From: Phytoseiulus persimilis
Lineage: Eukaryota > Arthropoda > Arachnida > Mesostigmata > Phytoseiidae
NCBI GenBank assembly: GCA_037576195.1
Contig: CM075102.1
Span: forward strand, 42,280,745 to 42,344,744
Direction: 5' to 3'
DNA length: 64,000 bases
Part shown: positions 34,614-63,590 of the stretch, piece by piece
How the letters are laid out: every line of letters starts with the position of its first letter
How positions within the stretch are numbered: the stretch's first letter is position 1
Program-made: the position numbers and the translations under genes
Notes under the pieces: model-generated
Databases searched by the model: none
Told to the model about the DNA's origin: nothing
What the model saw: only the letters and a program-made list of their open reading frames with translations

Positions 34614-34862
34614 CCCCTACTCCTGAAGTCCGCTGACATAGAAAGATGCTCTGAGATGCCTCAATCATCAAACGAGAAACTCCGAGGGGCACCTAACGAC
34701 CTGGAATGGTTCCCAATAAGAACGCTCCCTCACGATGTGTGGAGGAGGAGGGGCAATGTCTGATTTCGCCCTACCGAACCGTGTTGAAGCGACAAAATCG
34801 AACATCTTAGACACAACTGACAAGTTCCTCGGATCTTCATGACATCAGGCATTGCGGACGAC

Positions 34863-35125
34863 ATGGATCTCGAGCCTTTAATGAACTTGACTCTCCAAAT
34901 TGCAGCTGCCAGAGGAACTCTATAGAGCCGGTGAAGCAAACTGGGGGCACTCATTTTCTCGCAGAAGCAGACGAGACCAACCCGGAGCATTTTTACTAAA
35001 TCTGCAGGGCTCGGGCTATGCGCCCGGGTAGAGAGCAGCTCAAGAAAAGCACATGCCGTGTCGACGCTTCCTGAAATATTCAACGTTGGTCGCATTAGGA
35101 TCGTCGAATCGCTCTATTCGAAACC
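34863..35125 (+). pseudogene. Decayed inverted relative of the family A gene (copy 1)
   Basis: It starts at an ATG with the same opening as the intact family gene (Met-Asp-Leu-Glu) and lies downstream of a leader that aligns with the leader of the leftward gene at 36560-36760. Read in frame it has TAG and TGA stops about 22 codons in, then continues with a segment resembling the conserved T-L-x-x-[IL]-x-x-[AV]-G-R core of the intact protein. Similarity stops near 35125, where about 520 bases are deleted relative to copy 3. It is not a functional gene. Confidence 0.55.
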
Positions 35126-35898
35126 CCATGACACTCGGAAGAATCTCCTCCGGAGTCCAGACAGAAATGATTGGAATGAAGCTCTTCAGCTCTTCTCGCT
35201 CTGTCTGTGTTTTTGAGTCATCAACTCTAGGAGTTTGAAACCCTTTGTCCACTAACGACGTTGATTTATCGCGAGGCGAACGCTGTGAGTGTGCAAGCGT
35301 TCGCCCCGCTGGCCGTGAATGCTACCTCTAGAAAAGGTTGTGAATCTCCCGCAAAAATTTTCTCTCGGGCGAGTCTAATTCCGAGCCAAACCTCAACGTC
35401 ACAGTTGGAGGGGAAACTCTGTCGGGCCAGAGAGCAACGCTTTGATGCGAACAAGCGGTGATTCGATGGCTCCAGCTGAGGGGCAGCGAGTTATTGAAGA
35501 GGCCATCCACGCAAATACTCGAATGAGGTCTGGAATGCGATCTTCAGGGGTCTTCCTTCGCGCTCGCGGTGGGGTTACTCTCACGAGGTGCTCCCCCTGG
35601 ACTAATGAGATAGCCTCCATCCTCCACAAGGACGAGTGCGAGTGGTTGCGTCAGAGGTCTATCCTTGCCTGCATTTAATGCGCCTTGTCGGCCGGATTCC
35701 GTCTCGGCATACGTGATCCACTCATTTCATTCGGCGCATCATCTCATCGCGAACATTCATCCTTCGAGCAATTGCCTTCCCGGCTTTGAGCTATTCTTGA
35801 GCGGGCAAGGATCTGAGATGAATCCATCAAACATTCTTCTACAGGTAAGTTCGGAGGTTACAGACGGGGAGCGACGGGAGCATCTCCTCAACTGCCAA

Positions 35899-36024: not shown

Positions 36025-36558
36025 CTATGAACGCGACTTTGGTTTCCAAACAAGTCCGACTCCCATGCGGAGTGCAGGAAGTGGAGCGTCCATCTTCGAC
36101 CGCCGCCTTTTCGGCTTCGTTACTCGAGGAGGCACAGCGCGTTTCGACGGGACACTGTGAGATTGCAACGCTGGGAGCACACGACGGTGAAAGATTTCCT
36201 CGTTCTCGTAAATGATAGCCATCGGTTTGAAGGATTTGCTTGGCAGAAAGCGAGGTTTCTTGAAGAGGCTGGCACTAGGTCTCACCCTTGCACGAAACAT
36301 TTTTGTGAACTTGGCACGGCCTGCGTCGAGCAATTTACGAAGCGTCGTTATGGTGTTTCGTCTCATCGGGCTTGACTGCTTTCCTCCGGTCAGTGGCTTG
36401 AAACCTTGCGCATCCAGCTGAATGCTTCGGGCCGCTGCTGCTTCGGAAGCATCGCTCCCGCGGGAGGATGAGGGGCCACATGTTGGAATGCCGGTCTGGG
36501 AGAGCTTCGCTGGGAATTGCAACTTGGACAGAATTTTGATGAGAACCTCCATATCCAT
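36025..36558 (-). CDS. Family A basic protein, copy 1 (177 aa, unknown function)
   Basis: Single open frame, intronless, 177 residues. I do not recognise the family. The N-terminal 30 residues are mixed hydrophobic and acidic, the middle is Ser/Pro-rich, and from about residue 65 the protein is strongly Lys/Arg-rich. Conserved landmarks with the other copies are a T-T-L-R-K-L-L core followed by G-R and K-M-F-R-A, then P-S-K-S-F-K-P-M, and a basic tail ending near A-L-R-M-G-V. There is no signal peptide and no membrane segment, so a nuclear or nucleic-acid-binding protein is possible but this is inference. Copies 2b and 3 start six codons upstream with Met-Ser-Tyr; here that ATG is mutated, so I chose the internal Met-Asp-Met. 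A TTAAGTAC box lies about 70 bases upstream (36627-36634). It could also be the product of a non-autonomous transposon. Confidence 0.55.
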   Translation of the reverse strand: MDMEVLIKILSKLQFPAKLSQTGIPTCGPSSSRGSDASEAAAARSIQLDAQGFKPLTGGKQSSPMRRNTITTLRKLLDAGRAKFTKMFRARVRPSASLFKKPRFLPSKSFKPMAIIYENEEIFHRRVLPALQSHSVPSKRAVPPRVTKPKRRRSKMDAPLPALRMGVGLVWKPKSRS

Positions 36559-36892
36559 GTCGTATCAAATGGTTGAATACGGTTGAAGATCTGCTGAGCT
36601 TGTAGCTGCGGACCTGGCCTACATAGTTTAAGTACGGTTCTGGGGTGGGGGGCGGAGTCCGCCGCCTCCTCCTCCTCAAATCAAGGGAGAGTGTATCGCT
36701 TGGAACCCATCCCAGATCTGGAGGGTTTCTAGGTTCCCGCTGATTGCCCATATCGATCGATTTAGTGTTTATTGATCAGCTCCATGCTGTATTTTCATTC
36801 CAAACATAGCAGAAGCCGCTCAGTACGGGGCGATGGCTCAGGTGGTCGACGATGCGGTTATTCTTATTCTAGGACATACGCTCTGGGTTTTT

Positions 36893-37024: not shown

Positions 37025-38311
37025 CCAGGTCTATTCCAATGAAAGTGCACACATTTTTTCTGGCAATTTTTTTTTATCGATCCGACGCAGAGAGCCTGAG
37101 ATCATTCGAAGTAGCTGCTCTCACTAGCCACACACTTCGCCCATCTATCGACTAGGTCGCGGATGCCCTTGCGGTAGAAGACTCCACCCTTGGACTCGAA
37201 CCAAGATTCGAGCCATTTGTTCAACTCGACAAAGTTTGGAAAGTGAGTGTCTTTCATCGCATGGCCCAAGGAGGCGAAAACGTGGTAGTCTGACGGAGCC
37301 AAGTCAGGAGAACATAGCGGGTGGGGTAGCTGCTCCCAGCGAAGACCGGCAAGAGTTTCCCGAGTAGATTTGGATGTGTGAGCCGGGGCGTTGTTGTGGA
37401 GCAAAATCGTTCGTTGCTTCCTGGTGGCGAAATGCGGTCGTTTCTCAGCTACCCCGCGCGTCAAATCGATGAGTTGTTGCTGGTAGCGTGCTGCATCGAC
37501 CGTTTCACCCGGTTTCAGGAGCTCGAAGTAGATCACGCCCTCCTGGTCCCACTAAACACACAGCATCGTCTTTTTTCCGAACTTGTTCGGCCTTGCAGTC
37601 GAAGGACCTGATCCCCCCGGGTTCACCTACGCTGCTTTTCACGCTGGGTTGTCGTACAACACCCACTTCTCATCGCTGGTTACGATCAAGTGCAGGAAAC
37701 CTTTTTTTTGTTGCCGCAGGAGCAGTTCTTGGCAAATGATCAAACGGGTGTTTTTCTGCTCTTCTGATAACTCATGAGGGACCCAGCGCCCGACCTTCCG
37801 GACCTTCCCCAGAGCCTTGAGTCGCTTCGAAAGGGCTGACTGAGTCACATTCAGCTGAGCGGCGAGCTCCTCTTGGGTCTGGCCACTGTATTCCTCCAGC
37901 AAACGCTCCAAGTTCTGGTCCTTTAACTTTTCTTGTGGTCTTCCCCGAGGTTCATTCTCAAGATCGATATCGCCTTCTCGGAACTTCTCGTACCAGTTGT
38001 AACACGTTCTCCGGCCCAGTGCATGCTCGGGATAGGCTTGAACGAGCAAATCGTGGGCTTCACTCGCTGATTTCCCCAATCGAAAGAAGGTCAAAAGCGA
38101 TGCCCGCAAATCGCGGGGTGACGGCACGTAATCGCTCATGTTCGAACGTACACCGAAAATCTCAGCGAACTCCAGGCGCCAATTTGATTTAGGCGCTGGA
38201 AAGCTTTACTCATGCAGTAAACAGCACTACCGATTTGGCGCGAAAATTTGAACCACAGGCTGCTTCAGCGCCATTCGAACAAAGAGTGCACTTTCATAGG
38301 AATAGACCTGG
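37025..38311 (-). mobile_element. Mariner (Mos1/mauritiana-type) DNA transposon, inactive
   Basis: The element is 1287 bases long. Its ends are 26-bp inverted repeats (37025-37050 and 38286-38311), differing at one position and beginning CCAGGT. It is flanked on both sides by TA (37023-37024 and 38312-38313), the target-site duplication of Tc1/mariner elements. It carries one transposase frame on the minus strand. Length, end sequence and a 345-codon frame all fit the mauritiana subfamily, in which Mos1 belongs. It lies inside a LINE reading frame, so it is younger than that LINE copy. Confidence 0.95.
37102..38139 (-). pseudogene. Mariner transposase, broken by three stop codons
   Basis: Counting through the stops the frame is 345 codons, the exact length of Mos1-type transposase, with no frameshift. 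The N-terminal paired helix-turn-helix region is intact and is followed by the W-V-P-H-E-L linker and the first catalytic Asp in T-S-D-E-K-W. In-frame stops are at 37639-37641 (TGA), 37627-37629 (TAG) and 37552-37554 (TAG). The second catalytic Asp, normally in H-D-N-A, reads Asn (37393-37395). The third, in S-P-D-L-A-P-S-D-Y-H, is kept. The protein would be truncated near residue 166 and catalytically dead. All four lesions are G:C to A:T changes. The element could still be moved in trans, since both ends look intact. Confidence 0.93.
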
Positions 38312-40899: not shown

Positions 40900-41038
40900 A
40901 GACGCTGTCGACGAGCCTCCGGCCACGAACATCGATCAACAGGCCTACGTTTCCGATGAAGTCGTATCCCACGATGGCGTGCCTCACGTCCTCGATGATG
41001 AAGTTCCAGGTGAAGATGAGGCGTCTCGCAAGATTCAT
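40900..41038 (-). pseudogene. Gypsy aspartic protease, C-terminal part
   Basis: The frame contains the retropepsin C-terminal pattern W-x-F-I-I-E-D-V followed by A-I-V-G-Y-D-F-I and L-L-I-D, equivalent to the I-I-G-x-D-F-L motif of gypsy proteases. The N-terminal part with the catalytic D-T-G is not evident. The remaining frame runs on without clear similarity. Confidence 0.65.
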
Positions 41039-41640
41039 AGAGAGGTTTTTCGTGCTCTCCGTCCCGCGCCGAGGAGGCGGAACTGGCTTGACGCTGCGCG
41101 TGATACCTGTCGGCCAGCTTTTCTAGCTCTTGGATATCGACATCGTCCAAAGCGACCATCTGCTGGCGCAGGTGAAGTGAGAGATTTCCCAGGGAATGGA
41201 AACGGAAATACGAGTTCACTGTGGGCTTGGCATCGGGCCTGTACGAGCCAAGCATTCTTTAGAGAATCCTTGTCGGCGTGTCGTCGCCTATGGTCAGGTT
41301 CACAAATGTCGCTCTGAAGCTGGTTGACTGGGAGAGAATCGAGAACTCGCAGTTTGGAAGTTGCGTGCATCGATCCCGGTTCAGGTGGTTCGTCGAAAGA
41401 ATCTGCGACTCTCTCCAGCGCTCCCTGGTCAAGAGCTGTCAGAATGTACTCGGACCGCGTCTGATCGCCCGTGATCTTTCGAGAGCTGAACTGGGCCTCG
41501 ATGGTCTTGAACCACATGACGGGCTGCTCGTGCAAGAACTGTGGCAGCTTGAGGCTGACGGGGGCAACCCGCCTGGTTGCGATTGTAGTTCTCTGCGGCA
41601 GGTCCTTGATCCCGTCTTCGAACAGGTCTGAATCTGACAT
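41035..41640 (-). pseudogene. Gypsy Gag (capsid) fragment
   Basis: It starts at an ATG at 41640 just inside the 5' LTR. The capsid pattern is visible: L-P-Q-F-L-H-E-Q-P-V-M-W-F-K-T-I-E-A-Q-F, then T-x-S-E-Y-I-L-T-A-L-D, typical of Ty3/gypsy Gag (P-x-F-x-x-x-D-P-x-x-W-F). The second half of capsid (L-R-Q-Q-M-V-A-L-D-D, L-A-D-R-Y) continues in another frame around 41190-41060, so there is at least one frameshift. Confidence 0.75.
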
Positions 41641-41661
41641 GGAGCACGTTCGGGTCACCAC

Positions 41662-41771
41662 TAAAGCGTGTCGGGAACAGAGAACTCGGCTCGTCCGGAC
41701 TGCGCAACTACATAATGATTTATCAATCGTGTTGTTAGGAGTATGTAGCGATCTTGCTTCGCCCCGCCACA
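41662..41771 (-). repeat. 5' LTR of the gypsy element
   Basis: About 110 bases, beginning TGTGGCGGGGC on the minus strand and ending in the shared CCCGACACGCTT. The putative primer-binding site follows immediately. It is short for an LTR, and differs from the 3' LTR at many positions, which suggests an old insertion. Confidence 0.65.
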
Positions 41772-41990
41772 TCAGATGGTTCTGTATTCCGAGTGTCTCC
41801 TCGGAGTTTGAGTCTTTCGCTTCTGCAAGTTCTTTGACAAGCCTTTATCGGGGTTGAATCGAAGCCCCGTCTCTTCTCCGGGTTCCGATACGATTCCCAG
41901 TAGGTTCTCCATGTTTTATGGATTGTGTCACCAGCACCAGGTCATCTAGACGCCGGCCGTTCTGACCTGTGAGACGGAAAACACCGGGGC
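41772..41990 (-). pseudogene. LINE-A, RT palm fragment with D-D box
   Basis: The minus strand, with one frameshift, reads L-D-D-L-V-L-V-T-Q-S-I-K then M-E-N-L-L-G-I-V and G-L-R-F-N-P-D-K, the usual sequence around and after the (Y/F)xDD active site of LINE RTs. The first residue of the box is Leu instead of Tyr/Phe. Its expected continuation begins directly beyond the gypsy element at 39103, so I read the gypsy as inserted in this LINE. Confidence 0.6.
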
Positions 41991-44878: not shown

Positions 44879-45599
44879 TCGATTTGAGCGCGGATCGATT
44901 TGAGCGCAGGATCGATTTGAGCGCAGTTGATTTGAGCGAGGTCGATTTGAGCGCAGTTGATTTGAGCGAGGTCGATTTGAGCGCAGTTGATTTGAGCGAG
45001 GTCGATTTGAGCGCAGTTGATTTGAGCGCAACGAATTCACTCGCGCTGCTGTGAGTGTGGAGTATGAGATAGAGGGAGAGGAAAATCCCTCTTATCCTAT
45101 CCGCCTGTTGCAGACTACTCGACAAACAAAGAGAGTACGGTTGCTCGGGGAATATGGAGAGGAGAATCCAAACCTAACCTAACCTCATCGAAAATATTTC
45201 TCCTTCTCGAGCTAAGGCTACGTTCCTTTGTCTGATTCATCGAGGGAATGTCGTCACCGAAGTATCTCATGCCGTTGTCCAAATTCTCCTCTTCATATTC
45301 CCCCGAGCAACCGTTTTTTCCCTATTCGTCGAGTAGTCTACAATCGGCGGATAGGTTGGGGATTTTCCTCTTCCTTTATCTCATACTCCACACTCACAGC
45401 AGCGCGAGTGAATTCGTTGCGCTCAAATCGACCTCGCTCAAATCAACTGCGCTCAAATCAACCTCGCTCAAATCAACTGCGCTCAAATCAACCTCGCTCA
45501 AATCAACTGCGCTCAAATCAACTGCGCTGAAATCGACCTCGCTCAAATCAACTGCGCTCAAATCAATCCTGCGCTCAAATCGATCCGCGCTCAAATCGA
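44879..45599. repeat. Fold-back: two inverted arms of about 300 bp with 15-mer arrays
   Basis: The left arm (44879-45169) reads outward to inward: alternating 15-mers GATTTGAGCGCAGTT and GATTTGAGCGAGGTC, then an 11-base AACGAATTCAC, then about 130 bases of unique sequence. The right arm (45282-45599) is its reverse complement, with an extra repeat unit and scattered changes. The spacer is about 112 bases. A transcript through it would form a hairpin of roughly 300 base pairs. No open frame of interest lies within; translations of the 15-mers are artefacts of the repeat. Confidence 0.92.
45171..45185. repeat. Three AACCT (TTAGG-type) units in the fold-back loop
   Basis: Three perfect AACCT units at the inner edge of the left arm. 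TTAGG is the usual arthropod telomere repeat, but three units occur by chance and inside many genomes. Confidence 0.6.
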
Positions 45600-47481: not shown

Positions 47482-47874
47482 ATGGGACTCGAGTTTTTCA
47501 GGAACATTCTCTCCAAATTACGGTTGTCACCGGGACTCACAACCGTGTCGACGCCCCCCACATTGTTCGGAACGGCTCGCACGATTATCAATGAGCTCTT
47601 CCGCGCTTTGCTCAAGCAACGGGACAGCCCCTTTTTCCCCGAGAAACGTCGCTTCTTCCCGAGTAAATCCTTCATGCCGATGGAGACCATCTTCGAGAAT
47701 GAGGAACTCGTTGACCGCCGTCAGCTCTCGGTGTCCCATTCTCAAGGTGTTCCATCGAAGTACGTGGTCATATCTCAATCGGCGAATAAGCTCAAAAAGC
47801 GGCTCCGGAGGAGGTGCGCTCCACTTCCGGGAGCTCGCATGGGAGTTATTATGGGTGGAAAACCACACTCATAG
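47482..47874 (+). CDS. Family A basic protein, copy 5 (130 aa, unknown function)
   Basis: Intact ATG-to-stop frame of 130 residues. Landmarks shared with copies 1-3: L-S-K-L-R near residue 10, a basic E-K-R-R-F-F-P-S-K-S-F-x-P-M block at about residues 54-68, F-E-N-E-E as in copy 1, V-P-S-K, a K-K-R-L-R-R-R cluster and a tail with A-P-L-P-G-A-R-M-G-V. It opens Met-Gly-Leu-Glu, like the decayed rightward relatives in other copies, and lies in that orientation, so it may represent the intact form of that lineage. It lacks about 35-40 residues of the Ser/Pro-rich middle. No signal peptide or membrane segment. Function unknown; survival of the frame despite divergence suggests constraint. Confidence 0.5.
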   Translation: MGLEFFRNILSKLRLSPGLTTVSTPPTLFGTARTIINELFRALLKQRDSPFFPEKRRFFPSKSFMPMETIFENEELVDRRQLSVSHSQGVPSKYVVISQSANKLKKRLRRRCAPLPGARMGVIMGGKPHS

Positions 47875-49439: not shown

Positions 49440-49672
49440 ACTCTATCGAGCCGATTTAGATCGAATCTACAGAATTTGGACTACACGCCCGGGAAGACAC
49501 CAGCTCAAGGAAAAAGGATGCCGTGTCGACGCTTCCTGGAATATTCAACGTTGGTCGCAAGACGATCATCGAACTGCTTCATGCCCCGGCGGAACGGAAC
49601 AGCCTCTCCGAGAATCGCTGCCTTCTGTCGTGTGAATCCCGCTTTTCGAACGATGACGAGATACCGCGTTCT

Positions 49673-50776: not shown

Positions 50777-50793
50777 CCCCTCTGGTCGAGGGG
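50777..50793 (-). terminator. GC-rich hairpin between gene and poly(A) site (copy 2a)
   Basis: CCCCTC-TGGTC-GAGGGG forms a six-base-pair GC stem with a five-base loop. The same hairpin is in copy 2b (52617-52633) and a weaker form in copies 3 and 1. It is not the histone 3' stem-loop. Function unknown; called here only as a 3' structural element. Confidence 0.3.
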
Positions 50794-51015
50794 TAGCCAT
50801 GTTTGGTATCCCTAGAAGTTCGACTCCCATGCGAAGTGCGGGAACTGGAGCGCCCGTCCTCGGACGCCGCGTTTTCGGCTAAGTCACTCGAGGAGTCACT
50901 ACGCGTTTCTTTGGTACACAGTGAGGACGAAATACTTCCTCGTAAATGGTATCCATCGGTTTGAAGGATTTTCTTGACGAAGAGCGACGTTTCTTCGAGA
51001 GGCTGGCACGAGGTT
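50779..51015 (-). pseudogene. Family A gene, 5'-truncated copy 2a
   Basis: The C-terminal half is recognisable (A-S-L-S-K-K-R-R-S, S-R-K-S-F-K-P-M, V-P-K-K-R-V-V-T-P-R-V) but an in-frame TAG follows the last motif, and sequence upstream of about 51015 is unrelated to the family. It is a dead copy. Confidence 0.7.
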
Positions 51016-51649
51016 TCACTTTTGCACGCAACCACGGTCAGAATAATAGGGCTCGCCTTCAACCAGTTAAGAAACGTGCATCAGTTTCATCTCAAGAAAC
51101 TCACTCAACCACAAAGTTATCCACAAAGAAACTGGGCGAAAACCTGCTTATTATATTCATATCGCTCGATCTAATGATGATGCGTCGAGAGTGGACAGAG
51201 GACCATTTCCTTCGAATCCATGCTATGTCTTTGAATGTTTGAGCTTGACGCTCTTGAATCCTGATTTTCTAGACACAGGAACGATGAGTGACTGGGCTTG
51301 GAATCGCGGACGCAAAGGCATCTGCGGACTGAATTCTAGCTTCCGTTGCCCCTGGTTGCTGGGAGTCAGTTATCTGAAGCTTCCCCTTACGCGGATGCGT
51401 TGACGTCTCGAGCTCACTTGCTTTAATAAAACGCTCACCTTGGAGAAGACAGTGCATTTTAGCCTTCTGTCGATTTGGAGCTGTTTCGAGTCCTCCTGGA
51501 AGGGAACGGAATATGAAAGCGAGCCCAGAGAGCTACTGTTGACAATTCGCAACATGCGATTCGCACGGTGCGACGTGCGGCGAAGAGAGACATGGTGATT
51601 TTGGACGTTCGGCGCTCTCGTTCTGCAAGTTCCATTTGGGCATGGCCCT
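51016..51649. other. No recognised feature between repeat copies 2a and 2b
   Basis: Nothing recognised. Its edges are where similarity to family A stops and restarts, so it is either an insertion or the boundary of two copies. Confidence 0.4.
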
Positions 51650-52664: not shown

Positions 52665-53144
52665 TCACATGCGAAGTGAGGGAACTGGAGCGTCCGTCCT
52701 GGAACGCCGCGTTCCCGGCTTACTCACTCGAGGGGTCGCAACGCGTTTTATCGGGACCCTGTGCGGACGAAACACTTCCTCGAGGATGGTGTCCATCGGT
52801 TTGAACGATTTCCTCGATGAAGAACGACGTTTCTTCGAGAGGCTGGCTCGAGATTTCACTTTTGCCCGGAACATTTTCTTGATCTTGGGGCGGCCTATGC
52901 CGAGCAACTTTCGGAGCGTCGAGATGAAGCTGGGTCTTTTGGTGCTAAACCGGATTCCTTCGGTCGGTGGCTTGAACTCTTCCGACTCCATCCGAATCAT
53001 CGGAGCCGCTTCTGTCTCGGGAGCTTCGCTCCTGCGGGAGGTTGGGAGCCCCCATGTTGAAGTTCTGGCCTGGGAGGGCTTCGCTGTGAACTGCAACTCG
53101 GACAAATCGTTGTTGAGAACCTCGAGATCCATGTCGTAACTCAT
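52665..53144 (-). CDS. Family A basic protein, copy 2b (159 aa, unknown function)
   Basis: Intact frame of 159 residues. I chose the ATG at 53144 (Met-Ser-Tyr) because the same start and spacing are kept in copy 3 and a TTAAGTAC box lies about 60 bases upstream; the frame stays open further upstream but without a shared ATG. Order of parts: M-S-Y-D-M-D-L-E-V-L amphipathic start; Pro/Ser-rich middle; S-F-I-S-T-L-R-K-L-L-G-I-G-R-P-K core at about residues 75-90; K-K-M-F-R-A-K; S-K-K-R-R; R-K-S-F-K-P-M; basic tail with K-R-V-A-T-P-R-V. Roughly two thirds of residues match copy 3. Across 26 aligned codons of the core there are eight silent changes and one replacement. No similarity to a known family is apparent to me. 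Confidence 0.6.
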   Translation of the reverse strand: MSYDMDLEVLNNDLSELQFTAKPSQARTSTWGLPTSRRSEAPETEAAPMIRMESEEFKPPTEGIRFSTKRPSFISTLRKLLGIGRPKIKKMFRAKVKSRASLSKKRRSSSRKSFKPMDTILEEVFRPHRVPIKRVATPRVSKPGTRRSRTDAPVPSLRM

Positions 53145-53344
53145 GGTTGGGCACGGTTGAAGATTGATGAGTTTGTAGCTACGAAGCTGGGCTCCAAAGG
53201 TTAAGTACCATCCGGGCGAAGGAGGAGTCCCCTCCTCCTCCTCCTCAAATCGAGGGAAAGTTTTTGTCTTGGATGCCCATCCCAGATTTCGCCGGAGGGT
53301 TCGTCGGTTCTTGTCGGAAGTTGGGATCAAGAGGGACGAAGATC

Positions 53345-53613
53345 ATGAGCTCAAAACATCGTTGGCGATCAAGGTCATCGTTTTTTTGCTCGGTAGTGAC
53401 CACACGCGTTGGTGAGAGCTGCCGACGAAGTTGAGTTTTCATCGAGTCCTCGGATCTGAAGCCGTGCGGTTCTCGCTGCCATCAAAGCATCGGACCTTAG
53501 TGCAACCGAACGTTAACTTTCACCTCTTCCTGATCTCTTCGAGTCACGGAAGCCACCGCAGATATCCGATCTCGCAGCATTGGGTTTCCGGAACCGGCGG
53601 TGAAGAGCGCTCG
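53345..53613. other. No recognised feature
   Basis: Spacer between the family A leader and the open frame at 53614; nothing recognised. Confidence 0.4.
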
Positions 53614-54075
53614 ATGTCTGCAGCCTCAGCGACGTCGAGCACGGGCGATAGCGGCTCGAAGCCGACGCCGAAGAATGCGCGGGTCTATGATGTTGTAGGG
53701 AACACCGACGACACAGGTGACATGCACGTCGACACGGCGGATGGCGGGGAATTCGAGTTCCCGAAGAGCCGAAAGCTCCGTTTTCTTCAGAGGAAGCGAG
53801 CGATTATATTCCCCGGCGACATGAAGGACATCACGCCGACCTCCAGGGCTGCGGTCAGGCTCATGAAGAGCAAGCTCACAGAGACGCGGATGACTGCGAA
53901 CGGCGAGTTAGTTGTGGAAGTGGACAACGCCGAGGACGCGCTCACCGGACTCCAGACCAGAGCTGTGCGCCGCGGCGGCGAAGGACTGGAAAACACACAG
54001 CGGCGACGCTCGCCACGGCGAACAGTGGCGGACCGGAAGTGTCGCGGCGCGCCGGGAGATCCGGTCCCTGCATAA
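53614..54075 (+). CDS. Unassigned ORF, LINE ORF1/Gag-like (153 aa)
   Basis: ATG-to-stop frame of 153 residues. The N-terminus is Ser/Thr/Gly-rich and acidic, followed by a basic K-S-R-K-L-R-F-L-Q-R-K-R-A segment and then M-T-A-N-G-E-L-V-V-E-V-D-N-A-E-D-A-L. This last part resembles the RNA-binding-type fold found in Gag proteins of jockey/R1-like LINEs (a strand with G-x-L-V-V-E-V and a helix with D-A-L). No CCHC knuckles follow. It lies upstream, in the same direction, of LINE-C RT sequence (58.05 kb), so it may be its ORF1. It could equally be a host exon. Low certainty. Confidence 0.35.
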   Translation: MSAASATSSTGDSGSKPTPKNARVYDVVGNTDDTGDMHVDTADGGEFEFPKSRKLRFLQRKRAIIFPGDMKDITPTSRAAVRLMKSKLTETRMTANGELVVEVDNAEDALTGLQTRAVRRGGEGLENTQRRRSPRRTVADRKCRGAPGDPVPA

Positions 54076-55270
54076 CTGATGAATCGATTGATTGTCAACC
54101 ATTCCTCGAAATCGATTGTCAACCATCCGTCGACGATGTACATTTGGCCATGTGTGAAAAACCCTTCTCGCAGAGACGGGTGTTCTAAACTAGGTTCTGA
54201 ACCCGTCCAGTATTTTTCGACCACCACGCGAATATCGTCAAATTCTTCTGGCCGGAACGGACCACTCATAACACCCCGTCTTCATGAACACATCGTTACA
54301 GATCACTCTCGTCGGAGATCTGAAACCTTCAGCTGAGAGCCTGACACTTGGAATTCATGGATATGTCTAATATGCCGACGTTCGTTGAGCGATCACTGAG
54401 AACTGAATATCTGTAGTTGGTGTCCGACGCCTGAGTTCACGCGTCGAAGTATCAATGAAATCAAAAGCGGGAGAAGGGAAAATATACGTAGCAGTGAATT
54501 CCGCTTCGTCGTGATTTGTCTTAGCAACCCTGGGATTCGGGCTCGAATCCATGAAGCGCCGCCATGAAAACAATGCGGCGGCGGCGCAGCGGTGCGCTGT
54601 CTGGCCCGGCGCGCCGAAGCGCCGGCGAATCCGTGACGCGGGGCACAGCCCTGCTCCAGACTCTTGTGGGAGTAGCGGTCACTCCCAGGGAATCCAAGCC
54701 GAGGGTCAGCTCTAAGGGCATGGAGTAAGGCGTTCACTTCCTTCCGGAATCGATTCAAGGTCCTTCTCGGAATCCGTGTTACTGGAGTCTCTCAAGAGAG
54801 TCGGCGTCACCGAAGCGGTTCGCGTCAAGGCTCGTGATGATCGCCTGGGAGCTCTCGTTACAACGGAGCAAGGCGCTGCAGCGTTTTCGCTCATGTCTCT
54901 AAGAACTGCCAGGTGCCAGCAGACGCTTCCGTATGTCGTCGTGGCTCGGAGCGCGGCTACTTGTCGAAAAACTGCTCCAAGCCGGAGCGCTGCGCCAATT
55001 GCACCGGTTAGCACTCTACGAAAAACGAAGCTTGCCCCGCCCGATTGAAAATCCTCGAGCCTTGGCGACCGTCGGCGCCTTACGCTGACGGTTTGTATGA
55101 CCGAACGCGATCGTTGCATCAAAGTCTGGCTGAGCGGTACTCTCGACCGGAACCTGGTCTTCGCTGTGGCTCTTGTGCTTAATTCTCCATTCACAGCTAC
55201 GGTCCCGAATCACACGTCCATCTAGAGGAAAAATAATAAAATAGTTCTTATCCAGGATTCGTAAGGGCCA
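54076..55270. other. No recognised gene; GC-rich block at 54560-54720
   Basis: The 54560-54720 block is very GC-rich (GCGGCGGCGC-type). A plus-strand open stretch at 54776-55048 and a minus-strand one at 54712-55194 overlap; neither matches a family I know. Part of it may belong to LINE-C. Confidence 0.35.
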
Positions 55271-55399
55271 CCCGTGTTTTCTGTCCCGTCAGATGAATCC
55301 ACAGTAGTCCTGATTCACAGTGCGGATCGAGCAGCAATTCCACTTTTCCAACAAGTTCGATTTCACTCTACTCCTGAGCACAACGGCGGGAGACAACAC

Positions 55400-55835
55400 T
55401 CCACTTGCCACAAACCGACCGGAGGTCAACGCGCATGCGGATTTCCGTCTTGGTCGTTCCTACACTGGCGCTGCGCGAAACGGCATACGAGTCCCCAAGC
55501 GCACCCAGGCTCCACAGGCTGGTCCCGCCGCCATCGCCGTTCCCGGAGAGGCTCCACGCCAGGCGGTCCCTCCCCAGTCAGCCGCGATCGATGTCGAGGC
55601 TATCACGGAAACTATATTCGCACGCGTCATGAATGCGGCGACCGCTCGTTGTACAGCGCTGTTCGATGAACTGGTTACGGGGGTACTTGCCAAGCTGACG
55701 CCTGGGTTCATGGAGCAGATGGTGGCAGCAATACGCCGCCTGACTCCGCCGAGTCACAGCGCCTTTGACTTCAACGCTCTCGTTCGCAATGCGGCGACTG
55801 CGCATAAGGCTGAAACGGCTCTCCGTAAACTATGA
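55400..55835 (+). pseudogene. Open fragment, possibly LINE-C ORF1 or N-terminal region
   Basis: A plus-strand frame open to the stop at 55833-55835 reads as an Ala/Pro-rich linker followed by a regular helical segment (I-T-E-T-I-F-A-R-V-M-N-A-A-T-A-R and L-A-K-L-T-P-G-F-M-E-Q-M-V-A-A-I-R-R-L). There is no ATG in the first two thirds. The amino-acid make-up looks protein-like, but I recognise no domain. The position upstream of RT suggests retroelement origin. Confidence 0.3.
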
Positions 55836-56254
55836 CCGGTCAAGACCCACAAACAGGAGTGAACGGCGGTGGATAGAACACTGCTCACGGCATCGACGAG
55901 AGTCCAATTCCTTGAGGGAGTTCAAGACACCGATCGCTGATTTGTGGGCTTGCGCCTCGTCGAAGAGCTGCTGTCAACGCCGCTCGCTACGCTCGCGGGG
56001 CACTCCGGTTCTCGCTAGTCGGTGGGCCGTGAATGGCGGCGACGCAAAGAATAATACAAGGGTCAACGATGAGCAAAGGTTGCCCTCTGGTCGAATCCAC
56101 GAAGCTCACAAGCTTGTCAGCGGCATACTTGCTTCGCACTCCGGCACAACGCGCGCACGCAGTCCTGCCTGGCTCTACATGAAACCGATACATTCGAAAG
56201 GAACGAAGTGAAATAAGTTCGAACCACACCAGCGTCTCCCGCACCGCTGCTATC

Positions 56255-56365
56255 CGCTCAAATCGGGCCTTCGCTCAGATCGGGCTTTCGCTCAAATCGG
56301 GCCTTCGCTCAAATTGGGTCTCCGCTCAAATCGGGACTCCGCTCGAATTGGACCTCCGCTCGAAT
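56255..56365. repeat. Array of a 16-bp CGCTCAAATCGGG unit
   Basis: Seven imperfect units of about 16 bases share CGCTCAAATCGG. The core CGCTCAAATCG is the reverse complement of the CGATTTGAGCG core of the fold-back at 44.9-45.6 kb. Confidence 0.85.
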
Positions 56366-56409
56366 GTAGCGGCCCCCGTTCACACACGGACCGCATTCAT
56401 CCTTCCAAC

Positions 56410-56629
56410 CGCACAACCACTCCTAGTCAGCCATATACCTGCCTCTCAGGTCGTGCCAGAAACCCTCGACGTTCTCATCAAGCGCATAAACACCGACAGA
56501 AAGAGCGTGGAGCTCATCATCCCTCACAGTATCCGATCTACGGTGGCCGCGGAGCTAACGGACGTGCTCAATTCGGCTTGCTCGGCTAACGAGTTGGCCT
56601 CCCGGCCTGCGCTGTATTCTGTCTGCGGA
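56410..56629 (+). pseudogene. Open fragment next to the ACATTTTGGCGC array
   Basis: A frame open from the 16-bp array to the next array gives protein-like sequence (V-P-E-T-L-D-V-L-I-K-R-I-N and S-T-V-A-A-E-L-T-D-V-L-N). No start codon and no known domain. It may be a piece of LINE-C interrupted by the arrays. Confidence 0.25.
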
Positions 56630-56631
56630 CC

Positions 56632-56850
56632 CGGACATTTTGGCGCAAGACATTTTGGCGCAACGGACATTTTGGCGCAAGACATTTTGGCGCAACGGAC
56701 ATTTTGGCGCAACGGACATTTTGGCGCAACGGACATTTTGGCGCAACGGACATTTTGGCGCAACGGACATTTTGGCGCAACGGACATCTTGGCGCAACGG
56801 ACATTTTGGCGCAGGACGTCTTGGCGCAGGACGTCTTGGCGTAGGAACTT
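56632..56850 (+). repeat. Array of ACATTTTGGCGCA units (15-17 bp), forward orientation
   Basis: About thirteen units, mostly GGACATTTTGGCGCAAC (17 bases) with some 15-base forms; the last ones degrade to GACGTCTTGGCGCAG. Right of it, 56899-56926 is the reverse complement of 57571-57598 with one mismatch. Long translations through it are artefacts. Confidence 0.92.
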
Positions 56851-57575
56851 TGGGTGCAGATTCAGGTCGAGCTCCCATGAGTTATTCAATCAATCGCGAC
56901 AGTATTGTTCTGTGGCTATCGATGCTTTTTTTGCGATGTGTTGTGGTCTCTCGAAGATGGTCTCGTAGGCCCTCGTAGACTTTTCTTAGAGGCGTCGCCC
57001 ATAGTTTTCTGATCTGACGTAAACTCGGTCGACGTCCTGATGTACATCCATCCTCATTTCTTCAGATTCAATAACGCTCAGCTAATAAATATGTTTGATG
57101 ATTCATGATTTCATCTACCGAAGTCTAAGGTCGTTGAATTGTGCTCCACAATTTCCGCTCGCGGTTGGAACTATTCATAGAAGATGTCGAACCACTTTGA
57201 GAGACAGCAATGTCAGTACTTTTCATGAGGGGTCAATAAGATGTGGACAGCTTTCGGGCGATCACCAATGGAAGTGGGCTGTGGGACCACGAGTCCGTAG
57301 CCTAGATAGACAAGTGATAGTTGTGGACCTCTTGAAATTCGTTCCGACCGAGTCCCACAGCGTGTTCTCCCAGCATACGTCGACATTCCGATCGGGAGCC
57401 CATGCTGACATGCGTTCTTCAACCGAGGATCACTGCCGAGTCTGCATCGACGGCGCCGGTGCATTTCAGAGCGAGTAACTCTCCGAGTGAGCGATTCGAG
57501 CGAACTTTTTCGTGCAAGTGGGAATTGGGACGATTGATGAAAGCTCCGGTGGTCATATTCGTCACATGAAAGCAT
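56851..57575. other. Spacer between inverted arrays; no gene seen
   Basis: Apart from the inverted match at 56899-56926 nothing is recognised. It would be the loop if the forward and reverse ACATTTTGGCGC arrays pair. Confidence 0.45.
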
Positions 57576-58049
57576 CGATAGCCACTGAACAATACTGTTT
57601 TGGTGAGTCCTGACTGCTTCATCTGAATCTGCGCCAAAATGTCCTGCGCCAAAATATCCTGCGCCAAAATGTCCGTTGCGCCAAAATGTCCGTTGTGCCG
57701 AAATGTTCGCGCCAAAATGTCCAGCGCCAAAATGTCCTAGACCGTTCTGTCTGGACCGCTGTTCTCACCGCAGAGCATCCTTGTCGCTGATCCGCGAGAA
57801 CCTCGATAGATTTCATGAGACGATAGCCACTGAACAATACTGTTTTGGTGAGTCCTGATTGCTTCATCGGAATCTGCGCCAAAATGTCCTGCGCCAAAAT
57901 ATCCTGCGCCAAAATGTCCGTTGCGCCAAAATGTTCGCGCCAAAATGTCTGCGCCAAAATGTCCTAGACCGTTCTGTCTGGACCGCTGTTCTCACCGCAG
58001 AGCATCCTTGTCGCTGATCCGCGAGAACCTCAATAGATTTCATGAGACG
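57576..58049. repeat. Tandem duplication of about 245 bp carrying reverse-orientation arrays
   Basis: Two units, 57576-57822 and 57821-58049, are nearly identical from CGATAGCCACTGAACAATAC to TTTCATGAGACG. Each has its own GCGCCAAAATGTCC array (57632-57744 with seven units, 57878-57967 with six). The motif is the reverse complement of the array at 56632-56850. Confidence 0.92.
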
Positions 58050-59579
58050 CACGCCGTCGTTGCCCGACCGCTTCCCGCCTCCAGGGCTAGTGGTGCTTCT
58101 TCCCGAATAGAGAGCCCCTCGCGGGTGGCTCGGCTGATTCAGCCAAAGCTCGCACAAAGCGATGTCTCCTCTGCGGCCCGCACGCTGCTCTCGACCGACG
58201 TCACCGCACCCACTGACGACGAGACGCGGCGAACCCTCGAGGCCAAGCACCCAGAACCTCCTTCCTCTGCGGCGCGGTGCCCTCCGGCGCCCACGCCAGC
58301 TGCTTCCGTCGACGAGGCACAGCTCTCGGATCCAGAGATACGTGCAGCCATCCTTAGCTTTCGCAGCAGGGTTGAGTGGAGGTCCGGATGGAATCCGCCC
58401 GCGTCACCTCAAGGACCTCATCGTTGAAGACTCATGCCCTCTAGTCAGTGCCCTCACTAAACTCTGCACGATGGTGATCAACGGAAGACTTCTAGATTTC
58501 GTTTTGAACACGTTCCATGGTGCCAATCTGCTCGCGCTGCGCGTAAGGATCGGCGGGATCCGGCCTCCCGCTATCACGGCAACACGGTGAGACGTCTCGC
58601 AGCCGAAGTCGCTGTCAGGAAGTTCCGAGACCCTATCCGCGATTTCATTGCGCCCACCCAGCTGGGTTTCGCCGTAAAGGGTGGCTGTGAGGCCGCCGTT
58701 CACGCTGCCACCAGCTTCTCGGAGGTGAACAGCGATTCCGGCAAGATTCTCGTCAAATTGGACTTTGCGAATGCATTCAATACTCTCCGCAGAGATTCCA
58801 TACTCGAAATGATCCGGTCCAACTTTCGTTCGCTCCATCGCATGATCCAACAGGCTTACCGGAGCCCCAGAAAGTTCTTCTGGGAGGACCAGGTCATTCT
58901 GTCGAGAAGTGGGGTGCTGCAGGGAGATCCTTGCCCTCTTTTGCGCCGCTTTGCAGAAACTCGTGTCCACGTTGGTATCGGAGTTCAGGTCCTGGTTCCC
59001 CGACGATGGCACACTCGGTGGATCAATGAAATCCGTTATGGCGGACATCCAGAGAGTCAGAACATTCGTCGAGGTCCCGAGGCTCGTGTCTGGACAACAC
59101 CACACTCCGCATCGCTGCCGGTCTCCGCCTGGGGCTTCCGCTCTGCGCACCTGATCTGTGTGCCAGGTGCAGCTCCACCAAGTCCGCGTTGGGTGACCAC
59201 GGTTTCTGCTGCTCCCGGCGCGCGGGCCGCCATTCTCGCCACAGAGCTCTCAACGCCGTCATCTCCCGTGCGCTCGGTTCCGCGATGATCGCCAGCCAGC
59301 TTGGACCCACCGGCCTGTCGAGAAACTCGGCACTCCGTCCCGGATGGCATTACGCTGTCATCGCGGGCAGCGGGGAGGTCGCTCGTATCGGATGTGAGCA
59401 AGTCAACCGAGGCCTCCCTCAAATACTTCGGTCGCCGAATAGAGGCAACTTCGGGGGACAGAACGACGTCAGAATTCCTGTTGCAAAAACTATCAATCGA
59501 GATTCGAAGGGGCGACAGTGCAGCCGTTATAGGAACACTGCCGACCGGACCCGACCTGGCTGGCATCAGGGAATTCTAG
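58050..59579 (+). pseudogene. LINE-C reverse transcriptase with C-terminal finger and endonuclease-like region
   Basis: The order across frames is: a linker with L-A-Q-S-D-V and L-S-T-D-V-T-A-P (58050-58360); G-G-P-D-G-I-R-P-R-H-L-K-D-L (about 58376); G-G-I-R-P; Q-L-G-F-A-V-K-G-G-C-E-A-A-V-H-A (about 58660); palm motif A K-L-D-F-A-N-A-F-N; S-G-V-L-Q-G-D-P; W-F-P-D-D-G-T-L-G-G-S at the catalytic D-D box, where Pro replaces the usual residue; then a Cys/His region with R-H-S-R-H-R-A-L-N and P-D-G-I-T-L followed by S-L-V-S-D-V, which recalls a restriction-like nuclease core. The frame changes near 58360, 58570, 58930, 59070 and 59335. The tail T-L-P-T-G-P-D-L ends at the stop 59577-59579. The family is widespread in invertebrates; this copy is dead. 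Confidence 0.75.
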
Positions 59580-59639
59580 GATAGTGCCCACTCATCTATT
59601 ATTTGGAAACTTGCCCAATAAATTTTCGTAAGAAGGCTC
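59580..59639. other. 3' flank of LINE-C
   Basis: A short AT-rich spacer containing AATAAA at 59619-59624, then the left edge of family A copy 3. No poly(A) tail is visible. Confidence 0.35.
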
Positions 59640-60048
59640 GCTCGCCATTGATAATAATCTCGACACTACGGATTCGACGAAGATTGTCTCTCCTGATCGA
59701 TCAACATGAGATTGCAGTCTCCAGTTTTGAGTACATTCCTGATTTCTCACATGAAACTGACGCATCAATTCACAAATTCTGATCGAGTTCTCTGTGACTC
59801 CTGAACTCCGCTCACTCGGAGAGAAGAGATTTTGTGCTGAGAAACCGTCCTCTCCATACGAGAAATTCCGAGGGGGCCTTAAGACTTGGAATAGTTTCCA
59901 ATAAGAACGCTCCCTCATGATATGAGGAGGGGGGGGGGACAACATCTCCGTTCACCCTGCCAAGCCGTATTGAAGCGAGTAAATCGAACATCTCAGTCAC
60001 AAGTGACAAGTTCATCAGATCTTCATAAAATCTAGCGTTGCTGACGAC

Positions 60049-60745
60049 ATGGATCTCGAGTTTTTTTAAAACTATTCGAATTTCAGTTGCGAGCGGAACT
60101 ATATCGAGGCGGTTGATGGAACTGGGGGCACTCATTCTCTCGCAGGAGAGCATACAAGTCCAACCCAGAGCATTTCGACGGAATCTACAGAACTTGGACA
60201 ACACGCCCGACAAGAGACTCCGAGAGGAGATAATGCCGTGTCGACGCTCCCCGAAATATTCGACGTTGGTCGCACGAAGATCGTCGAATTGGTGACAACC
60301 CCCGGGGCAACGGAACAGCCTCTCCGAGAAACGCCGCGTCCTGCCGAAAACCTTGCTTTTTAAACGAAGACGGAATGGGGTCGGCGCAGGTTGGGATGTG
60401 CTCGTCGATATGGAGCACCGACTTAGGAACTCCGAAAGAGGTGATTCGAGGCTCAAACTGGCGGAGAGACTGATGATTCCAAGAACGGAAGAGAGTGCGA
60501 GGCTTCCCGCGTCCACCTTCGCTGCCCCTTCGGCTGCCACTCGTGCGTCCGAGGGCGCTCACGAGCGCGGCGCCTCCGAAGCAATCAAGACAACAACTGC
60601 GGGGGTCCGGAGGATGGTACCCTGGCCTTCAAACTTGTGTGCCGGAACCATCCCGAAATCAAGACCAGAACCCTATCGCGGAGCTCCCACCTTTAACTCC
60701 GAGCATGATTCCGATCCAGAATGAGTTTCGCCGACTTCTCTCACG
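60049..60745 (+). pseudogene. Decayed inverted relative of the family A gene (copy 3)
   Basis: It opens ATG with Met-Asp-Leu-Glu and hits a TAA after six codons. Further pieces in shifting frames: S-T-L-P-E-I-F-D-V-G-R-T-K-I, aligning with the T-L-R-K-L-L-G-I-G-R core; N-S-L-S-E-K-R-R-V-L-P; N-S-E-R-G-D-S-R; and the end M-I-P-I-Q-N-E-F-R-R-L-L. It has multiple stops and at least one frameshift. Confidence 0.55.
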
Positions 60746-61040
60746 ATAATATTTTGTACTCAGTAGACTTCGTACAATATTTCCCGGCTCCGAATGACCT
60801 CTCCTGCGCTCTCCTCAGAACCCCATGACTTTCGGGAGAATCTCTTCCGGAGTCCAGACAGAAATGATTGGAATGAAATTCTTCAACTCTGCTCCCTCGC
60901 TCGATTGCCTCCTCAGCTTTGAACCATTTTTCAGCAGACACGGAGTTGGTATGAATTGAATAATCTTTTTTTTTACGGGGGAGTTCGGGAAATCCAGACG
61001 GGCAGGGACCGAAGCTTTCCCCTCGCTGGCGTCCGAGCAA

Positions 61041-61046
61041 TTTATT
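61041..61046 (-). promoter_or_regulatory. Polyadenylation signal of family A gene, copy 3
   Basis: AATAAA on the minus strand, 172 bases past the stop, in the context TTTTTGAATAAATTGCTCGG shared with copies 2b and 5. A short stretch at 61062-61105 with two related ATATGT-like segments is specific to this copy. Confidence 0.6.
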
Positions 61047-61217
61047 CAAAAATACAAGTTTATTTTAGCCGATGCAACTAAATACATATAAACTAATGCC
61101 TATATGTATTCCATTGACTGATGTGGATGTCGAACAGAAGTAGAGTTGCTTCAAAAGTCGGCGTAATCTCTTGACCCCCTATGGTTGAGGGGTTGCCATG
61201 TTTGGTCTCCCAACAAG

Positions 61218-61694
61218 CTAAACTTCCATGCGAACTGGGGCGCCCGTCCTTGAACGCCGCGTTTTCGGCTTGGCTACTCGAGGAGTCACGACGCGCTTTA
61301 TCGGGACACTCCGAGGACGAAACACTCCCTTGTGGGTGCTGGCCATCGGTTTGAAGGATTTTTGCGACGGAGAGCGTCGCTTTTTCGATGAGCTGGCACG
61401 GGGTTTCTGTTTTGCACGGAACATTTTTTTGGCCTTGGGGCGGCCTATGCCGAGCAACTTACGAAGCGTCGAGATGAAACTTGGCCTCTTCAGGCTCATC
61501 CGTGTTCCGTCGGTCGGTGGCTTGGAATCTTCCGAGTTCACCGGAATGCTCGGAGCCCCTCCTGTCTCGGAACCTTTGATCCTGTGGGAGGATGGGAGCC
61601 TCCATGTTGCAGTTCCGGCCTGGGAGGGCCTCGCTGTGAATCGCAACGCGGACAAATCGTTGATGAGAACGTCGAGATCCATGTTGTAGCTCAT
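61218..61694 (-). CDS. Family A basic protein, copy 3 (158 aa, unknown function)
   Basis: Intact frame of 158 residues from ATG at 61694. Same plan as copy 2b: M-S-Y-N-M-D-L-D-V-L start, Pro/Ser-rich middle, S-F-I-S-T-L-R-K-L-L-G-I-G-R-P-K core, K-K-M-F-R-A-K, S-K-K-R-R-S, Q-K-S-F-K-P-M, and a basic tail. Predicted soluble, highly basic; no signal peptide. The leader carries TTTAAGTAC at 61751-61759, about 60 bases upstream, at the same place as in copies 1 and 2b, and could act as a TATA-like element. The short spacing from ATG to that box implies a short 5' UTR and no intron. Product and role are unknown; a nuclear or chromatin protein, or a transposon-encoded accessory protein, are both possible. 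Confidence 0.6.
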   Translation of the reverse strand: MSYNMDLDVLINDLSALRFTARPSQAGTATWRLPSSHRIKGSETGGAPSIPVNSEDSKPPTDGTRMSLKRPSFISTLRKLLGIGRPKAKKMFRAKQKPRASSSKKRRSPSQKSFKPMASTHKGVFRPRSVPIKRVVTPRVAKPKTRRSRTGAPVRMEV

Positions 61695-61750
61695 GGCTGT
61701 GTCCGGTTGGAGATCTGATGAGCTTGTGGCTACGAAGCTTGTTCTCAGAG

Positions 61751-61759
61751 TTTAAGTAC
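61751..61759 (-). promoter_or_regulatory. Conserved TTTAAGTAC box upstream of family A gene
   Basis: Found at the same distance (about 60-70 bases) before the start codon in copies 1 (36627-36634), 2b (53201-53208) and 3. The sense strand reads GTACTTAAA, which could serve as a TATA-like element. Conservation may simply reflect shared ancestry. Confidence 0.3.
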
Positions 61760-61950
61760 GATTTGGGCGGAGGCGGAGTTGCTCTCCTCCTCAAATCGTG
61801 GGAGAGTGTTCTTCTTAGAAGTTCATCCCAGATCTGGAGGGTTTCTCGGTTCTTGTCGGAAGTGGGGTTCAACCCTCAAATTTCGCCACCCTAGTAGAGC
61901 GCCGAAGAGGTCTATTTCAGTGTGCACCCTGAATGTAATAATGCACAACC

Positions 61951-63247: not shown

Positions 63248-63590
63248 ATGAATCCCGAGTTTCTCAAAATCAGAACTCTTCGAATTGCAGTTGCCCACGA
63301 AACTCTAGCGAGCCGGTAAATCAACCTTGGGGCATTCATTCTCTCGCAGGGGCAGACAAGTCCAACACAGAGCATTTGACAGAATCTACGGAAATTGGAC
63401 TATCCGCCCGGGAAGAGATCAGCTCAAGAAAATATAACGTCATTGAATAGCTGCGTGCCCCGGTGCAACGGAACAGCCTTCCCGAGAAACGCCGCGCCCT
63501 GCCGAGTAGATCCTGCTCATCGAACGATGACGAAATAGGGGTCGGCGCAGGTTGGGATGTGCTCATCAATATGGAGCAGTGACTCAATCA
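63248..63590 (+). pseudogene. Decayed inverted relative of the family A gene (copy 4)
   Basis: It opens with ATG (Met-Asn-Pro-Glu-Phe-Leu-Lys), has in-frame TAA and TGA stops, and later shows N-G-T-A-F-P-R-N-A-A-L-P-S-R-S in a shifted frame, equivalent to the K-R-R-x-P-S-K-S block. Similarity to the family stops near 63590. Confidence 0.5.

Follow-up and report, generated by a model that had tools for sequence, protein, structure and literature searches.

Short open reading frames for a small basic protein recur along a stretch of the Phytoseiulus persimilis genome (the window: 64,000 nucleotides, C2:42280745-42344744, in a 181-Mb, 127-contig genome), and raise the question of whether they are host genes, remnants of genes or parts of a repeated element. 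We favor, at a probability of about 0.68, a lineage-restricted (orphan) family of small basic-protein genes with birth-and-death turnover at a single locus. The family would have grown there by tandem and segmental duplication, with copies gained and lost by birth and death. A local family in which open, broken and long-dead copies lie together is a usable case for the origin and death of orphan genes, and it also bears on where along a small disordered protein selection keeps its hold.

Copies at one locus

A sequence-only reading of the window had described a multicopy family with four intact frames and one truncated frame. All four frames (c1, c3, c4 and p; Table 1) are open, and the motif order that it gave is common to them, p being the loosest, with VSTPPTLF in place of TLRKLL. 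The truncated copy (c2) also exists, although it had been placed about 25 bases away and in the wrong frame: the interval 50779-51015 contains stops, and the correct family frame opens with a stop, after which comes a TAG in frame.

Table 1. Family copies and associated features, in window coordinates
Feature	Position	Strand	Description
R1	34621..35327	+	decayed copy, tail to tail with c1; extent from DNA alignments; z 10.7-13.2 on +, 0.4-2.4 on -
c1	36025..36558	-	intact frame, 177 aa; most diverged among open minus-strand copies
c1 core, residues 65-113	36220..36366	-	by alignment
p	47482..47874	+	intact frame, 130 aa; start and core retained, linker largely missing
R2	49454..49633	+	weak, doubtful decayed copy; HMM score 11.2
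c2	50804..51040	-	5'-truncated pseudogene with in-frame TAG; core and tail only
c3	52665..53144	-	intact frame, 159 aa
c3 core, residues 69-117	52794..52940	-	same codon alignment as c4 core
R4	59843..60659	+	decayed copy, faces c4 tail to tail; extent from DNA alignments; z 9.1-14.9 on +, 1.2-3.9 on -
3' block of c4	61041..61217	-	AATAAA signal at end, common to c1, c3, c8, c9
c4	61218..61694	-	intact frame, 158 aa
c4 core, residues 69-117	61344..61490	-	basic segment and KSFKPM; constrained part, omega 0.18 (c3, c4, c8, c9)
Block 5' of c4	61695..61859	-	165 bp; aligns with c1, c3, c8, c9, partly p and c5

Five further copies, c5-c9, lie outside the window on the same contig, C2. Genome searches with c4, c1, p and x as queries scored only the best candidates, so that their counts are lower bounds: c1 and x each recovered at least ten C2 family places within 42316769-42373717 (about 57 kb), c4 at least nine (E 5.9e-97 to 2.4e-19, with p missing) and p at least seven. 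Copy p was itself recovered with c1 as the query (E 2.2e-15). All four queries listed one relative on another contig, x, near 18470876-18471109 of C3, with an alignment confined to the core. These places bear out the description of the family as multicopy; the remaining search rows were N-terminal pieces of c5 and c7, and all others, at E of at least 0.334, were treated as noise.

Seven of the ten C2 places listed hold open copies (c1, p, c3, c4, c6, c8 and c9), and c5 and c7 have one frameshift in common. Beyond the window, the c6 protein is identical to that of c4 and the c8 protein is three residues apart from it. Segmental duplication here is large: one pair of stretches about 14 kb apart, for instance, aligns over 8,448 bases at 99.4%; an assembly effect may touch the newest duplicates. 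The clustering of copies at one locus, together with the single relative on C3, fits local duplication and not a dispersed element.

Other elements were seen in and around the cluster. Inside the duplicated unit lie frames for an endonuclease and a reverse transcriptase, as in a non-LTR type element (L022:4641-7532, plus strand), and they recur about 14 kb further along. Within the window, 37639-38139(-) encodes a Mos1-type transposase HTH (Pfam HTH_48, E 2.1e-14) that is probably part of a mariner element, 41035-41772(-) is a DUF7041 frame (E 6.3e-12), and 44879-45597 and 56253-57965 hold six tandem arrays of 15- to 17-bp repeats, some of them oppositely oriented. Elsewhere on the contig, C2:44367927-44368083 (L058) gives a single 5.8S rRNA match at 58 bits (cut-off 42), with SSU- and LSU-like sequence adjoining by eye.

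Gene and protein anatomy

The gene unit looks intronless, with an upstream block, start codon, frame and AATAAA signal held in common. About 150-165 bp of upstream sequence align among c1, c3, c4, c8 and c9, differing by 0.16-0.25 per site (0.04 for c4/c8), and the upstream sequences of p and c5 align with this block in part. In c4 the block contains GTACTTAAAC, which we take to be a putative TATA-like element, and CTCATCAG, presumably Inr-like. An inner ATG (MDxE or MGLE) is common to c1, c3, c4, c5, c9 and p. It is probably the conserved start, because the ATG of MSY, four codons upstream, is missing in c1 and p. The AATAAA signal lies 3' of the stop. Copy c9 ends in a GTGAGT-like sequence, for which reason we considered that a further exon may follow the frame. 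A protein is presumably produced from the family genes.

The product would be very basic and mostly disordered, running from a short N-terminal segment through a drifting linker and a basic amphipathic segment to K-S-F-x-P-M and a K/R-rich tail. Across seven copies the pI is 10.3-12.0, the lowest value being that of x, whose tail is non-homologous; each copy has 23-37 lysines and arginines (18-23%), and the C2 copies have 0-1 cysteines. The AlphaFold model of c1 is poor (mean pLDDT 55.2, pTM 0.13); it places helices at residues 3-12 and 67-87. Tested against 2000 shuffles per copy, the core segment, which was picked by hand, is more amphipathic than 1878 to 1947 of them in five copies, and the first, N-terminal segment is not unusual in three copies. 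From charge and predicted disorder, the likeliest role, which we nonetheless rate below even odds, would be that of a nuclear product whose core and tail bind nucleic acid or some other charged partner.

Constraint on a core segment

The sequence-only reading had also claimed purifying selection, on the grounds that, in 26 codons aligned between c3 and c4, eight differ silently and one by replacement (Ile/Ala). This count is exact, but the codons are unrepresentative, beginning exactly at the start of the constrained core; a short hand-picked run can exaggerate constraint over a whole protein. Over 156 aligned codons c3 and c4 differ silently at 22 and by replacement at 45; the corresponding figures are 23 and 29 of 154 for c3/c9 and 20 and 74 of 155 for c1/c3. 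The argument that replacements should be far commoner between neutral copies suits the 26 chosen codons, but the linker has just such an excess.

We therefore report codon models (GY, F3x4) by segment, with 2dlnL measured against omega = 1; these values may run slightly high because the omega = 1 fits used a grid of kappa values. The modelled copies were picked for being open, segment borders were set after the data had been seen, and codons holding a gap or a stop were removed. The models omit c2, which is truncated, c5 and c7, which carry the frameshift, and c6, whose protein is identical to that of c4.

Full-length dN/dS had been set beforehand as the refuting test, a value near 1 counting against function, and the five copies c1, c3, c4, c8 and c9 come near to that outcome, with an omega of 0.82 that does not differ from 1 (2dlnL 1.46); the four younger copies (c3, c4, c8 and c9) give 0.55 (2dlnL 7.84). 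The claim of purifying selection is not supported for the whole protein in the five copies but is supported for the core, residues 69-117 (49 codons), where the younger copies give omega 0.18 (2dlnL 20.11). With c1 added the core gives 0.41 (2dlnL 10.93), and a wider core in c1, c3, c4, c9, p and x gives 0.43 (2dlnL 23.74). On either side of the core and linker, omega in the younger copies is 0.41 for residues 1-17 (2dlnL 1.13) and 0.54 from residue 118 to the end (2dlnL 2.50); with c1, residues 1-17 leave 13 codons, on which the fit is unoptimised, with omega left at 1 and 2dlnL at -0.89. In the linker, residues 18-68, omega is 3.02 (2dlnL 6.28), or 2.30 with c1 added (2dlnL 6.93).

As a control, we modelled five 147-column windows of the 3' flank in c3, c4, c8 and c9, each in six frames; these overlap one another and partly R4, and so are not 30 independent draws. 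Omega falls below 1 in 16 of the 30 window-frames, with a top 2dlnL of 7.08, and constraint of the core's strength is reached in none. By contrast, omega exceeds 3 in two window-frames with 2dlnL of 5.27 and 5.12. Because the core stands well outside the flank range, we accept constraint on it as real and regional; because the linker sits at the edge of that range, we do not accept diversifying selection there, and find no clear departure from neutral ahead of the core. We regard as improbable a new family of bipartite basic proteins whose core stays fixed and holds a linker under pressure to change (omega 2.3-3.0), much as in proteins involved in a genetic conflict, in the germline for instance.

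Dead copies and the case for a relic

Two relics, R1 and R4, lie on the plus strand of the window. Six DNA comparisons of these with the family give z of 9.1 to 14.9 in the plus orientation and 0.4 to 3.9 in the opposite one (40 single-base shuffles each), as against only -1.6 to 1.9 in twelve comparisons of two control stretches. For R2, z is 4.9 against p, 2.8 against c1 and 0.4 against c4. We at first took frames near 34730-35095 and 63336-63566 to be BTB-like; of the 93 matches in a genome search for BTB, not one fell within the cluster, and these stretches align antisense with the basic-protein family itself.

Such remains lend weight to a family that functioned when it duplicated and is now mostly decaying, its core constraint left over from an earlier time: c2 is truncated, c5 and c7 share their frameshift, R1, R4 and, weakly, R2 are dead, and full-length omega in the five copies is close to 1. 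Yet the core omega of 0.18 in c3, c4, c8 and c9 reflects changes made after those copies parted, and seven copies remain open, so that we consider this reading unlikely, if the best of the alternatives. Under simulated neutral drift to a distance of 0.3 (indels ignored) the frame stays open in 3-6% of runs, and c1 stands 0.31-0.35 from c3, c4 and c9. Counting against the favored reading, the noncoding flank is no less alike between copies than the frame: c3 and c4 differ at 0.164 per site in the 3' flank and, within the frame, at 86 sites out of 468.

Strand and reading frame

Open frames also run antisense to two copies, with 156 aa at 52669-53139(+) over c3 and 153 aa at 61228-61689(+) over c4, and the true product might be one of these or come from a sense-strand frame that overlaps the family frame. 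Of the antisense phases over c3 and c4, the most intact is r1, in which third codon positions coincide with those of the sense frame. In the core of c1, c3, c4, c9, p and x it yields omega 0.44 (2dlnL 18.76, four stop-bearing columns dropped), and the strand is undecided by phase in that set. In the young copies phase alone settles it: the core gives 0.18 (2dlnL 20.11) in the forward frame (f0) versus 0.35 (2dlnL 7.74) in r1. A six-frame comparison of the core gives the strongest signal to the forward frame in both copy sets, without and with c1. Further, over the full frame length of seven copies, themselves chosen for an open f0, r1 has one to five stops per copy and f0 none.

On the sense strand, the linker gives omega 0.53-0.66 in f2 (2dlnL 2.6 and 4.2), where f0 gives 3.0-2.3, a weak hint that a second frame overlaps the first. 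In p, another forward frame, f1, is likewise stop-free. A 138-aa frame in phase f2 overlaps the N-terminal half of c1 (36335-36751, minus strand). Codon usage, trained only on the longest frames of six genome stretches, is weak and mixed: f0 scores above 69 to 308 of 314 open stretches, varying by copy, and f2 and r1 outscore it in c3, c4, c8 and c9. Given the young-copy core and the stops in r1, we hold a product from any of these other frames to be very improbable.

Database searches

Pfam gave no match for c1, c3 or c4 at E 1, and for six family members at E 10 the sole match was of p to SMI1_KNR4 (E 0.05, below its cut-off). No match was returned by NCBIfam at E 1, by PDB at E 10 with c3 or the family profile as query, or by phages at E 1 with c3; PHROGs gave one match, at E 0.11, that is not credible. 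A viral and a prokaryotic origin were considered and set aside, as none of 22 pattern stretches in the viral contigs and 103 in the genome contigs was confirmed. The earlier failure to recognise a known family is thus upheld within the libraries searched, and "orphan" as used here means unmatched in the Pfam, NCBIfam, PHROGs, PDB, phage, viral and prokaryote collections.

That the frames are a portion of a transposable element or satellite is highly unlikely: repeats are plentiful here (endonuclease/reverse-transcriptase frames, the Mos1-type HTH, minisatellites), but the recognisable copies, in counts that are lower bounds, lie at one locus and one C3 place among the best candidates scored, rather than dispersed, and the frame has no transposase or reverse-transcriptase domain. 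Badly decayed copies elsewhere in the genome may have escaped such scoring.

Comparison with known systems

Sperm nuclear basic and protamine-like proteins are small, disordered, rich in lysine and arginine, and fast evolving, and by composition the orphan family resembles them in each of these respects. It differs in a K+R content of 18-23%, far under that of protamines, and in having 0-1 cysteine.

The Neuralized-binding motif of the Bearded family is of NxxN type, and it was not seen in c3-c9 when these were checked by eye. The likeness to Bearded proteins lies elsewhere: these are small proteins with amphipathic helices and little sequence conservation, and their clustered genes form a complex reported from insects and crustaceans (PMC4575448). 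The same account reports no E(spl)-C bHLH genes in four chelicerate genomes (PMC4575448).

Local duplicates, open copies beside broken ones and no outside relative found liken the family to orphan tandem families under birth-and-death. These are a general known kind, and no feature of the present family sets it apart from them as a kind; what is notable in it is how sharply the core differs from the linker.
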